Shown one piece after another: positions 46,553-60,340 of a stretch of DNA of 64,000 bases. Position 1 is the first letter of the stretch. Each line of letters opens with the position of its first letter. The notes under the pieces were generated by a model, which had not been told where the DNA came from, ran no database searches, and saw only the letters and a program-made list of their open reading frames with translations. Source of the stretch: Pseudomonas sp. SJZ079. GTDB taxonomy: Bacteria; Pseudomonadota; Gammaproteobacteria; Pseudomonadales; Pseudomonadaceae. The position numbers and the translations under genes are program-made. The stretch spans positions 1-64,000 of the forward strand of contig NZ_VIUH01000015.1 of assembly GCF_007993865.1 (NCBI RefSeq), read 5' to 3'.

Positions 46553-46629
46553 GGGCCCATAGCTCAGTTGGTTAGAGCAGAGGACTCATAATCCTTTGGT
46601 CCACGGTTCGAGTCCGTGTGGGCCCACCA
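46553..46629 (+). tRNA. tRNA with CAU anticodon, probably tRNA-Ile2
   Basis: 77-base cloverleaf with encoded CCA end: acceptor GGGCCCA/TGGGCCC, D arm AGCTCAGTTGGTTAGAGC, anticodon loop CTCATAA and T arm CACGG-TTCGAGT-CCGTG. The anticodon CAT would be read as methionine unless lysidine-modified. The body resembles E. coli ileX (GACTCATAATC..TTGGTC) much more than elongator tRNA-Met, so I call it the AUA-reading isoleucine tRNA. Its 3' 46 bases are the left attachment repeat of the island. Confidence 0.85.
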
Positions 46630-54994: not shown

Positions 54995-55070
54995 ACTCAT
55001 AATCCCTTGGTCCACGGTTCGAGTCCGCGTCGGCCCACCACCTTTAAAGCCGCGCACTGTGCGGCTTTTT
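54995..55070. repeat. attR-like direct repeat: partial tRNA plus terminator
   Basis: Copy of 46584-46659 with five substitutions. It carries the 3' half of the tRNA (from the anticodon loop), but one change breaks the T-arm stem (CCGCG against CACGG) and another alters the acceptor stem, so it could not fold as tRNA. It marks the right boundary of the island; the chromosome resumes with the sigma-54 regulator. Confidence 0.85.
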
Positions 55071-55185: not shown

Positions 55186-56664
<1,479 letters not shown>

Positions 56665-56678
56665 AATGTCGGATCATT

Positions 56679-56749
56679 GTAGGGTGGGTTAGCGGCGCCA
56701 AGCGCCGAAGGTTCAGGCAGCGCTAGCGTGACGCGCCGCGTAACCCACC
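56679..56749. repeat. YAACCCACC-type palindromic repeat
   Basis: Begins GTAGGGTGGGTTAGCGGCG and ends CGCCGCGTAACCCACC, so the outer 10 or so bases are inverted. The same ends are at 60455-60566. This is a small dispersed intergenic repeat of pseudomonads. Confidence 0.65.
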
Positions 56750-56909
56750 AGGCGATAGGCCTGCGTCGCGCCGATGGAGGGTTAGGGCGCAACCGATCTT
56801 GCAGGCTCATCGCTATCGGGAGCATGCGCCTAACCCAGCCTTGGGATCGCGGCACATGGCTAAGACCGCGATTAACAGGCATTTAAACGTTGTCGTGACA
56901 CCAGCCTGG

Positions 56910-56978
56910 TGTCCAACCAAATGGACAGTCACCCTCAATAGCGTCCAGGAATATGGACACTGTCTAGCCAAGTAGACA
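56910..56978. promoter_or_regulatory. Three upstream activator sites (UAS)
   Basis: Three copies of TGTCYA-N6-TRGACA: TGTCCA/TGGACA at 56910-56927, CGTCCA/TGGACA at 56942-56959, and TGTCTA/TAGACA at 56961-56978. Each has a six-base spacer. They lie 113-181 bases upstream of the -24 element, the usual position for enhancer-binding proteins, and the activator gene is immediately upstream. Confidence 0.8.
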
Positions 56979-57090
56979 GTCAAAGCCGCCCAACCCAGCA
57001 TCACAGCCCCCGCACAAACCCCACTTGCTGCGCATCCAGGCCCCGAACTAGAGCGCCTTACCGCCCACGCGAGCGGGCTAGCTCCCTACC

Positions 57091-57106
57091 TGGCACGGCT
57101 TTCGCT
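57091..57106 (+). promoter_or_regulatory. Sigma-54 promoter (-24/-12)
   Basis: TGGCACG, four bases, then TCGCT, against consensus TGGCACG-N4-TTGCW: one mismatch at the -12 element. It is 106 bases before the permease start and downstream of the three activator sites. Confidence 0.8.
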
Positions 57107-57211
57107 CTAGGGTTGTGCATGGATTGCGCGAACCTGCCAAGGCGCCTCACGCAACCACTACCGGCCCGCCACAGAGCGGCGCCTAAAACAACAACAAAAG
57201 GAATAACCTGC

Positions 57212-58597
57212 ATGGGTACCCTCGGTATTCTGATTTCTCTGGCCCTGTTGATGTACCTCGCCTACCGCGGCATCAACGTGCTGATCCTCGCTCCCCTGCT
57301 GGCCCTGCTCGCCCTGCTGTTCTCCGGCGAAGTGGCCATGCTGCTGCCGACCTACACCCAGGTGTTCATGAAGGCCATGGGCGGCTACGTCATCCAGTTC
57401 TTCCCCTTGTTCCTGCTCGGCGCACTGTTCGGCAAGCTGATGGACGACTCCGGATCGGCCCGCGCCATCGCCCACGGCATAGTCGCCAAGGTCGGCAGCC
57501 AGCGGGCGATCCTGGCCATAGTTTTGGCGTGCGGCATCCTCACCTACGGCGGCGTCTCGCTGTTCGTGGTGGCCTTCGCGGTCTACCCGATCGGCGCCGC
57601 GCTGTTTCGCGAGGCCGGCATCCCCAAGCGCCTGATCCCCGGCGCCATCGCCCTCGGTTCGTTCACCTTCACCATGACCGCGCTGCCGGGCACCCCGGCG
57701 ATCCAGAACGCCATCCCCAACCCCTTCTTCGGCACCGATGCCTTTGCCGCGCCGGGCCTGGGCCTGATCGCCGGGCTGATCATGTTCGGCCTGGGCACCT
57801 GGTGGCTGAGCAGCCAGGCGCGCAAGCTGAAAGCCGCCGGTGAAGGCTATGGCGAGCACCGCGACGACCCTATCGCCCAGGACAACAGCGGCATTCCCGG
57901 TTTCTGGCTGGCGCTGCTGCCGATTCTGCTGGTGATTGCCCTGAACTACCTGATGGCCAAGCAAGTGTTGCCGAACATCGACGCCAGCTTCCTGGCCAAG
58001 CCGGAGTTCGGCGGGCTGCAGGACGCCAAGTCGCTGATCGGGATCTGGTCGATCATCGTCGCCCTGGCCGCCGCCATCCTGCTGCTGGTCGGGCTGCACT
58101 GGAAGCGCTGGGCCAACCTGCAGAAAAGCGTCAACGACGGCGCCTTCGGCTCCATGCTGCCGATCCTCAACACCGCAGCGGAAGTCGGTTACGGCACGGT
58201 GATCGCCTCGCTGGCCGGCTTCGTGATCATCCGCGACCTGGTGCTCGGCGTCTCCAGCAACCCGCTGATTTCCGAGGCGGTGGCGGTGAACATCCTCGCC
58301 GGCATCACCGGCTCGGCCTCCGGCGGCATGTCGATCGCGCTGAAGACCCTCGGCGAGCAGTACCTGAGCCTGGCCACCGCCGCCGGCATCAGCCCCGAAC
58401 TGCTGCACCGCGTCGCCGCCATGGCCTCGGGCTGCATGGACACCCTGCCGCATAACGGCGCGGTGATCTCGCTGCTGGCGATCTGCAAGCTGACCCACCG
58501 CGAGTCGTACAAATTCATCTTCGTCAATACCGTGGCCTTCCCCATGGTCGCGCTGGTTGTGGTGATTATGTTGGGCACCCTGTTTGGCAGCTTCTAA
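57212..58597 (+). CDS. GntP/Na+-H+ antiporter-type permease
   Basis: Inner-membrane transporter of 461 residues with 12-14 predicted membrane helices of the GntP-like family (MGTLGILISLALLMYLAYRGINVLILAPLLALLALL). Conserved features are LPGTPAIQNAIP and GITGSASGGMSIAL and MDTLPHNGAV near the end. Its substrate is probably a short-chain hydroxy acid or keto acid, since a sigma-54 activator lies upstream and a CoA transferase downstream. ATG 57212 follows AAGGAAT. Confidence 0.88.
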   Translation: MGTLGILISLALLMYLAYRGINVLILAPLLALLALLFSGEVAMLLPTYTQVFMKAMGGYVIQFFPLFLLGALFGKLMDDSGSARAIAHGIVAKVGSQRAILAIVLACGILTYGGVSLFVVAFAVYPIGAALFREAGIPKRLIPGAIALGSFTFTMTALPGTPAIQNAIPNPFFGTDAFAAPGLGLIAGLIMFGLGTWWLSSQARKLKAAGEGYGEHRDDPIAQDNSGIPGFWLALLPILLVIALNYLMAKQVLPNIDASFLAKPEFGGLQDAKSLIGIWSIIVALAAAILLLVGLHWKRWANLQKSVNDGAFGSMLPILNTAAEVGYGTVIASLAGFVIIRDLVLGVSSNPLISEAVAVNILAGITGSASGGMSIALKTLGEQYLSLATAAGISPELLHRVAAMASGCMDTLPHNGAVISLLAICKLTHRESYKFIFVNTVAFPMVALVVVIMLGTLFGSF

Positions 58598-58771
58598 CAG
58601 ACCACTGAAAAGCTGCTGCGCTCGGCTATACGGCGTTGCGCTCAGGCTCGGATGCTCATGTACAGCCGTACATTGCGCGTCCTCGCCTGAGCGCGCCTTG
58701 CCTAGCCTTCGCTCGCGACGCTTTTAAGCGCCCTGTACTTCTTGTTGTTTAACCGCTTTCGAGTACCCGCC
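58598..58771. repeat. Nested palindromic intergenic element
   Basis: Between the permease and the CoA transferase. GCGCTCAGGC (58638-58647) and GCCTGAGCGC (58685-58694) form a perfect ten-base stem, and inside it ATGTAC-AGCC-GTACAT (58658-58673) forms a second. Likely a dispersed Pseudomonas repeat that can fold in RNA and separate the two genes' expression. The CoA transferase ATG is 38 bases beyond its last conserved part. Confidence 0.6.
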
Positions 58772-60340
58772 ATGAGCAAGATCATGAGTGCCGCCACCGC
58801 GGTGGCGCGCATCGCCGATAACGCCAACGTCGCCACCGGCGGTTTCGTCGGCATCGGCTTCGCCGAGGAAATCGCCATCGCCCTGGAGCAGCGCTTCCTG
58901 GCCGAGCAGGCACCGCGTGACCTGACCCTGGTGTATGCCGCCGGCCAAGGCGACGGCAAGGGCCGTGGCCTCAATCACCTGGCCCACGAAGGTTTGCTGC
59001 GGCGGGTGATAGGCGGACACTGGGGACTGGTGCCGGGCCTGCAGAAGCTGGCGGTGGACAACCGCATCGAGGCCTACAACCTGCCGCAGGGGGTGATTTC
59101 CCAGCTGTTTCGCGACATCGCCGCGGGCAAGCCGGGGCAATTGTCCAAGGTCGGCCTGGGCACCTTCGTCGACCCCGAGTTCGGCGGCGGCAAGCTCAAC
59201 GCCCGGACCACCGCCGAGCTGGTGCGGCGCATGCCGATCGATGGAGTGGACTACCTGTTCTACCCGACGTTACCGATCCATGTCGGCATCATCCGCGCCA
59301 CCAGCGCCGACCCCGACGGCAACCTGAGCATGGAACGCGAGGCGCTGACCATCGAGAGCCTGGCCATCGCCATGGCCGCGCACAACTCGGGCGGTTTGGT
59401 GATCGCCCAGGTCGAGCGCATCGTCGAGCGGGGCTCACTGAACCCGCGCGAGGTGAAGGTGCCGGGCATCCTGGTCGACTGCGTGGTGGTCGCCCAGCCA
59501 GACAATCATCAGCAGACTTTCGCCACCGGCTATAACCCGGCCTTTGCCGCCGAGACCCGCGTGCCCATGGACAGCCTGAGCCCCATGCCGCTGGATGTGC
59601 GCAAGTTGATCGCCCGCCGCGCCGCCCTGGAGTTGAGCGCCGGCACCGTGGTCAATCTGGGTATCGGCATGCCCGAAGGCGTCGCTGCGGTGGCCGCCGA
59701 GGAAGGCATGATCGAGCGCCTGACCCTGACCGCCGAACCCGGGGTGATCGGCGGGGTGCCGGCCTCTGGCCTGGATTTCGGCGCGGCAAGCAACCACAGC
59801 GCGCTGATCGACCAGCCCTACCAGTTCGACTTCTACGACGGCGGCGGGCTGGATCTGGCCGTCCTCGGCTTGGCCCAGGCGGACGCGGCAGGCAATCTCA
59901 ACGTGTCCAAGTTCGGCTCGCGCCTGGCCGGCGCCGGCGGTTTTATCAACATCAGCCAGAACGCCAAGCGCGTGGTGTTCGTCGGCACCTTCAGCGCCGG
60001 CGCGCAGGATATCCGCATCGAGGACGGTCAGCTGCGCATCCTCCAGGACGGCGAGGTGCGCAAGTTCGTCGCTGAGGTCGAGCACCGCACCTTTGCCGGC
60101 CGCCAAGCCGCCGAACGCGGCCAGCCGGTGCTGTACGTCACCGAGCGCTGCGTATTCCAGCTGACCCTGGACGGCCTGGAGTTGATCGAGATCGCCCCCG
60201 GCGTCGACCTGCAACGCGACATCCTCGCGCGCATGGACTTCCAACCGATCATCCGCCAGCCCAAGCTGATGGATGCGCGGCTGTTCGCCGAGACAGCTAT
60301 CGGCCTCTGCGAGCGGCTGGGCCAGCCTGGCGACGCCTAG
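58772..60340 (+). CDS. Acyl-CoA:acetate/3-ketoacid CoA transferase
   Basis: 522-residue fused alpha/beta class I CoA transferase. N-terminal half has [33 protein letters not shown] and [25 protein letters not shown]; the second half has [14 protein letters not shown] and the catalytic glutamate in [15 protein letters not shown], the E-x-G motif of this family. It transfers CoA between short-chain acids, consistent with the upstream permease. Followed by a terminator. Confidence 0.9.

Follow-up and report, generated by a model that had tools for sequence, protein, structure and literature searches.

A predicted sigma-54 control region between an enhancer-binding protein gene and a probable operon for organic-acid import and activation in Pseudomonas sp. 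SJZ079

The region at positions 56891-57106 of the window (the whole stretch of 64,000 nucleotides from Pseudomonas sp. SJZ079 that was analysed) has the features of a sigma-54 switch placed between an activator gene and a likely operon for the import and activation of an organic acid, a reading that we regard as well supported. Judging from the sequence, the switch very probably controls the uptake and activation of a carboxylate, with the activator acting on UAS sites and through a sigma-54 promoter. It is a further example of an already known type of switch. A preliminary description, made from the letters alone, had pointed to this control region, to the activator and to the permease; the second gene of the operon (a YdiF-like CoA-transferase), the relation to HbcR and the repeat inserted before the sites were absent from it. 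The features are the following.

55186-56664, + strand: enhancer-binding protein gene (P0001, 492 aa; PAS, sigma-54 AAA+ and Fis-type HTH domains; from ORF and Pfam)
56644-56905, no strand assigned: interspersed repeat (MITE-like), with approximate boundaries, overlapping the last codons of the activator gene
56910-56927, no strand assigned: predicted UAS site 1, TGTCCA-N6-TGGACA, TGTCCAACCAAATGGACA; second-ranked in the window with a matrix built on other loci
56942-56959, no strand assigned: predicted UAS site 2, CGTCCA-N6-TGGACA, CGTCCAGGAATATGGACA, one mismatch; rank 1 in the window
56961-56978, no strand assigned: predicted UAS site 3, TGTCTA-N6-TAGACA, TGTCTAGCCAAGTAGACA; rank 7 in the window
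57091-57106, + strand: sigma-54 -24/-12 element, TGGCACGGCTTTCGCT; rank 1 over both strands; TGGCAC-type in 14 of 15 window-type loci (see below)
57212-58597, + strand: GntP-type permease (461 aa; from Pfam), first gene 3' of the promoter
58772-60340, + strand: YdiF-like fused CoA-transferase of 522 aa, probably the operon's second gene (Pfam CoA_trans, 108 bits; PDB 2ahu)

The genes around the region fit this reading. The adjacent gene previously called an activator encodes a protein with PAS (PAS_4, 29 bits), sigma-54-interaction AAA+ (PF00158, 228.4 bits) and Fis-HTH (PF02954, 46.1 bits) domains, in which the GAFTGA and Walker motifs can be read; the AAA+ domain, the GAFTGA loop and the Fis-type HTH are those of a bacterial enhancer-binding protein. 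The model for rpoN has one match in the same genome. Downstream, the permease starts with an ATG at 57212, shortly preceded by AAGGA, and the earlier assignment to the GntP type agrees with Pfam (30.7 bits for a cut-off of 22.5). A gluconate permease, or gluconate specificity, was considered and ruled out by the NCBIfam GntP cut-offs (26.8 vs 647 and 19 vs 292.75 bits), and the protein is assignable by similarity to the GntP superfamily only. The product of the next gene aligns with E. coli YdiF (PDB 2ahu) over residues 4-512 (E 3e-138). Because a gap of 174 bases (58598-58771) separates the genes for permease and CoA-transferase, we infer rather than observe their co-transcription; at another locus (L117) they are close together, with matches 13 bases apart. 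By eye, the gap is rich in inverted repeats.

Three TGTCYA-N6-TRGACA palindromes had been described 113-181 bases before the promoter. Two of them are exact, and the middle one has a C for the first T; re-reading the sequence gave the same distances, with the array of three sites lying 181 to 113 bases upstream of 57091. Sigma-54 promoters have the consensus TGGCAC-N5-TTGCW, with GG and GC ten bases apart. Ten bases likewise separate GG from GC in TGGCACGGCTTTCGCT, whose -12 part is TCGC and not TTGC, and the ending CGCT is also common to 118 of 143 tabulated promoters. This element, already proposed as the -24/-12 promoter, ranks first in the window by an independent matrix built from 128 promoters of the HbcR type (see below), scoring 16.1 over the two strands vs 10.1 for the runner-up. 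A symmetrised matrix of 30 sites from 12 loci, which excludes the copy of this genome and its near twin L004, ranks position 56942 first, 56910 second and 56961 seventh among those of the + strand of the window; site 3 is thus weak, with a score close to that of an unrelated place.

Taken alone, the loose patterns are weak evidence: TGTC-N10-GACA is found twice in the window (0.82 expected; 22 of 100 shuffles reach two), and so is TGGCAC-N5-Y-N-GCW (1.04 expected; 32 of 100 shuffles). Since neither is significant in the window, we used conservation and the matrices. The search of the genome for further pairs, proposed in the preliminary description, returned the exact pattern TGTCYA-N6-TRGACA at sites 1 and 3 and at no further place in 5,022,697 bases (reversed control, 0). 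When up to two mismatches are allowed, TGTCCA-N6-TGGACA has 408 matches in the genome vs 114 in the reversed control, so isolated weak matches elsewhere carry little meaning.

Conservation lifts the sites and the promoter above chance. Activators 82-96% identical to that of the window, here called window-type, are present in 13 of 199 genomes of the genus (this one included) and amount to 15 copies, because two genomes (G060 and G063) carry two each. Sites of this type together with a TGGCAC-type promoter follow 14 of the 15 copies, in line with the sigma-54 control region first proposed, and the repeated dyads lie about 100-200 bp upstream; in the remaining copy (L012), neither sites nor promoter were found 3' of the activator. 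Of the 14 site-bearing copies, eight have three sites passing the threshold and six have two; a looser threshold adds a weak third site in L008, L009 and L010. A discovery of inverted repeats to which no motif was given, allowing one arm mismatch, recovered GTCCA-N6-TGGAC in 10 of 11 window-type copies (11 of the 15, the window's own excluded), where 100 mononucleotide shuffles reach at most 5; an overlapping repeat on this core, TCCAG-N4-CTGGA, did equally well. The order activator, permease, CoA-transferase is kept in 8 of the 11 copies whose wide gene context was read, the window included in both counts.

The geometry of the region is also regular. Where three sites are present (eight copies), the second begins 30-33 bp after the first and the third 18-19 bp after the second (49-52 in total), with 32 and 19 bp in the window, and a locus with two sites (L006) has them 20 apart. 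From the last site to the -24 element, the 14 copies measure 99-101, 111-113, 122 or 130-132 bp, distances that step by about one helical turn among loci that are related. At 10.5 bp, the phasing of the 14 distances has an R of 0.79, which none of 20000 uniform draws reaches, again with related loci; when they are collapsed into four clusters, a grouping chosen after the data were seen, p is 0.029. For the HbcR type, R is 0.93 in 65 copies with near sites, 0.60 in 41 others and 0.63 combined. Such regularity hints at a helix-face constraint on looping that, in the window clade, would operate without an IHF-like site.

What the genomes show directly is the set of sequence elements, how these are conserved and spaced, which genes surround them, and an rpoN gene; established enhancer-binding-protein biology suggests how they would work together in terms of binding, looping, signal, start site and direction of control. 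The adjacent one-component PAS activator would bind as dimers to the three 18-bp sites of the TGTCCA-N6-TGGACA type. A small carboxylate, or a signal derived from one, would meet the PAS domain and lead to the assembly of a hexamer, which would bend the 110-180 bp between sites and promoter into a loop and remodel the sigma-54 RNA polymerase at 57091-57106. Transcription would then start near 57117 and run through the gene for the GntP-type permease, probably continuing into that for the YdiF-like CoA-transferase; the acid could thus be imported and then converted to its CoA ester.

The sister group of the window-type activators (50-55% identical to that of the window; 134 read, one each from 134 genomes) corresponds to HbcR, judging from its neighbourhood and from the parts of the published descriptions consulted, with the PAO1 and SBW25 sequences outside the comparison. 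HbcR (PA2005 / PFLU2630) is the sigma-54 activator through which Pseudomonas controls the catabolism of (R)-3-hydroxybutyrate and, in the part of the report consulted, responds to R-3-hydroxybutyrate (PMC10482368). The neighbours of the HbcR-type genes are a permease, a BDH and an acetoacetate-CoA ligase in all 10 loci with wide context, which include five of the named Pseudomonas contigs; NCBI models name the BDH and the ligase in L122. Both types have TGGCA[CT]-type promoters, palindromic sites with a 6-bp gap and a PAS-AAA+-Fis activator whose gene precedes that of a GntP-like permease. They differ in the half-site (GTCCA in the window type vs GTCTC in the HbcR type), in the operon (CoA-transferase vs BDH and ligase) and in the distance from the last site to -24, which is 99-132 bp in the window type vs 50-63 bp in 65 of 106 HbcR-type copies and farther in the other 41. 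The same discovery of inverted repeats, with one arm mismatch allowed, gave GTCTC-N6-GAGAC in 14 of 17 HbcR-type loci (shuffles, at most 4). Perfect GTCTC-N6-GAGAC accompanies 110 of the 130 copies with the recognition helix RSTLYK, and perfect [GA]TCCC-N6-GGGA[TC] the three copies, all of one subclade, with RSTLYR.

The promoters of the two types differ as well in an IHF-like block, which we take to be defined by 8 of the 9 bases of the IHF consensus WATCAANNNNTTR. It is present anywhere in the last 60 bases before -24 in 111 of 128 HbcR-type promoters (shuffles, 14%), starting 18-19 bases 5' of -24 in 105 of the 128 (e.g., L021 and L023), vs none of 14 window-type promoters, in which the last 95 bases were scanned. 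In the few HbcR-type blocks read by eye the same base is missed, and the block may therefore be another element.

An alternative reading, which we consider unlikely, is that the activator is simply the local HbcR and that the operon serves (R)-3-hydroxybutyrate, the compound to which HbcR is described to respond. The similarity of the activators and of the permeases (46-49% identical to those of the HbcR-type group) speaks for it, as do the second window-type activator copies near BDH genes in G060 and G063. Yet window-type and HbcR-type copies separate in a tree that sampled 35 of the 130 RSTLYK copies, with support of 94 for the window-type group and distant genera on the HbcR side; this is a quick tree with long branches. 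Together with an operon of permease and CoA-transferase in place of permease, BDH and acetoacetate-CoA ligase, and with a different half-site, this argues against the window activator being the orthologue of HbcR. Moreover, the best match of an HbcR-type query in this genome is the protein of the window (55%), followed by one of 48% over part of its length. A search with BdhA returned nothing at E<=1e-40 in this genome and nothing at 1e-60 in 10 of the 13 window-type genomes, while the same query matches 6 of 16 genomes. Because the BdhA search of the genome was empty, our guess is a short-chain carboxylate that needs CoA activation and no BDH, such as acetoacetate, rather than (R)-3-hydroxybutyrate.

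The loci that depart from the common gene order bear on this point. The second activator copies of G060 (L033) and G063 (L006/L116) adjoin OprD and BDH genes; the clade is therefore not confined to a single substrate. In L033 and L116, OprD and BDH genes replace those for permease and CoA-transferase, preceded in L116 by a tannase-family gene, and in L118 the activator is followed by the CoA-transferase, without permease. The cluster of L006/L116, which has the second activator copy, then a tannase-family esterase, an OprD porin and a BDH, is perhaps one for 3-hydroxybutyrate esters or oligomers. A further pair of site and promoter, TGTCTATATTTTTGGACA and TGGCACAGAAATCGCT with 104 bp between them, lies in G060 (L033, at about 1270-1410, reading the reverse complement) 5' of a gene for a TRAP solute-binding protein, which is likely a second target of this activator clade.

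These exceptions also help to assign the sites to the activator. The palindromes could in principle serve another regulator, e.g., a repressor or another enhancer-binding protein, the adjacent activator acting elsewhere. Adjacency alone is no proof of assignment, and an HbcR-type query has 12 matches in the genome at E<=1e-60, P0001 included. However, in 14 of the 15 copies the sites come after the activator gene, even when the next gene is a different one (CoA-transferase in L118/L008, OprD in L033, the tannase-family esterase in L006/L116), and the type of half-site tracks the activator clade, which makes this explanation quite improbable. That chance inverted repeats stand beside a chance match to -24/-12 can be dismissed: looser patterns by themselves are no rarity in the window, but other genomes repeat both sites and promoter 3' of the activator, and matrices to which this genome did not contribute give those of the window high ranks.

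The preferred reading, a sigma-54 switch worked by the adjacent activator, has parallels beyond HbcR. GcsR, the activator of glycine cleavage in P. aeruginosa, likewise has three 18-bp tandem palindromic sites 5' of the RpoN promoter of the adjacent operon; it differs in its site (TGTAACG-N4-CGTTCCG), activator and operon, and binding to its sites was tested by EMSA, according to the part of that study consulted (PMC4894688). Comparative genomics of the sigma-54 regulons of Desulfovibrio, in the sections seen, made the same kind of inference from EBP motifs beside promoters, one of which is yGTCA-N6-TGACr, in other organisms and for other activators than those of the window clade (PMC4641369). 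Among the literature matches listed, no title or abstract start concerns this activator or TGTCCA-N6-TGGACA as its site, and none concerns a sigma-54 operon of GntP permease and CoA-transferase. Our analysis supplies a candidate binding motif, promoter and operon for the activator in a genome that yielded no HbcR-type copy, and it leads to a testable prediction: among comparable activators, the half-site should vary with the clade.

This prediction could extend to more distant relatives. TGTC-N10-GACA is present near the activator in 4 of 25 distant loci (L052, L056, L262 and L265), and none was found in the 400-base stretches on either side of the activator in the other 21. The sites have TGTCCT in L052 and L262, both with RSVLY helices, TGTCTG and TGTCCG in L056, and TGTCCG in L265. 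Perfect six-base arms with TGTC occur in three distant loci; 200 shuffles never gave more than one, and two other tetramers came to two. No such site was found in L264, whose activator, from another genus of the family, is 79% identical and where the downstream region holds a gene on the reverse strand, nor was TGTC-N10-GACA found in the scanned stretches of L049, which has a helix (RSRLYDK) much like the one of L265. We tentatively raise the possibility, more doubtful than not, that the activator family forms a natural series in which the scaffold TGTC-Y-X-N6-X'-R-GACA is kept and X (sometimes Y and the outer bases) tracks the recognition helix. In such a series, X may be A with RA[AS]LY[NS] (the window type, TGTCCA) and with RAG[LF]Y[AT], which would have looser outer bases (NNTCCA); C with RSTLYK (GTCTC) and with RSTLYR, where Y would be fixed as C (GTCCC or ATCCC); T with RSVLY[DE] (TGTCCT, in both arms in L262 and in one arm in L052); and G with RSRLYER (L265) or RANLYEK (L056).

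If the series were true, replacing the K that follows the conserved tyrosine by R would switch GTCTC to GTCCC, and part of the DNA-recognition code of the helices of Fis-type enhancer-binding proteins could be read from genomes. In the tree sample, 33 of the 35 RSTLYK copies are assigned TCTC and 13 of the 15 window-type copies TCCA, with no type in two copies of each. Because the tree has only two changes of half-site type, the correlation between helix and half-site rests on few events; the contrast between K and R is based on one clade of three, and the clade-wise series is thinly sampled. The activator family is coupled to carboxylate handling. Six of 19 distant loci (L036, L037, L041, L042, L049 and L056) have, near the activator, a CoA-transferase 62-70% identical to that of the window; the transporter could be typed in four of them: GntP-type by similarity in L036, MFS in L037 and TRAP in L049 and L056. 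Other distant loci differ, e.g., L035, which has an amino-acid-type ABC solute-binding protein.

The control region of the window also appears to carry the mark of an insertion. A repeat of about 262 bases lies between the end of the activator gene and site 1, and it has five further matches in this genome, 72-90% identical over 163-262 bases of the query, and eight shorter ones (the flanks were read for two copies). In the near twin L004, site 1 directly follows the stop codon of the activator. The activator ends in VSCQS in the window vs G in L004, a changed C terminus that the insertion of the repeat may have caused. The palindrome GACACCAG-C-CTGGTGTC at 56897-56913 was considered as a fourth activator site and rejected, being read as the end of the repeat abutting site 1. 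Repeat end and host flank together form this palindrome.

Elsewhere in the window, the 3' end of a tRNA-Met (46553-46629), whose 5' neighbour is presumably rpoD-like, is repeated at 55018-55040 with 2 mismatches in 23. The two copies bracket about 8.4 kb that include an AAA_13 gene, a Shedu-type (SduA_C) gene and, we presume, a HipA-like gene, a stretch that looks like a small defence island.
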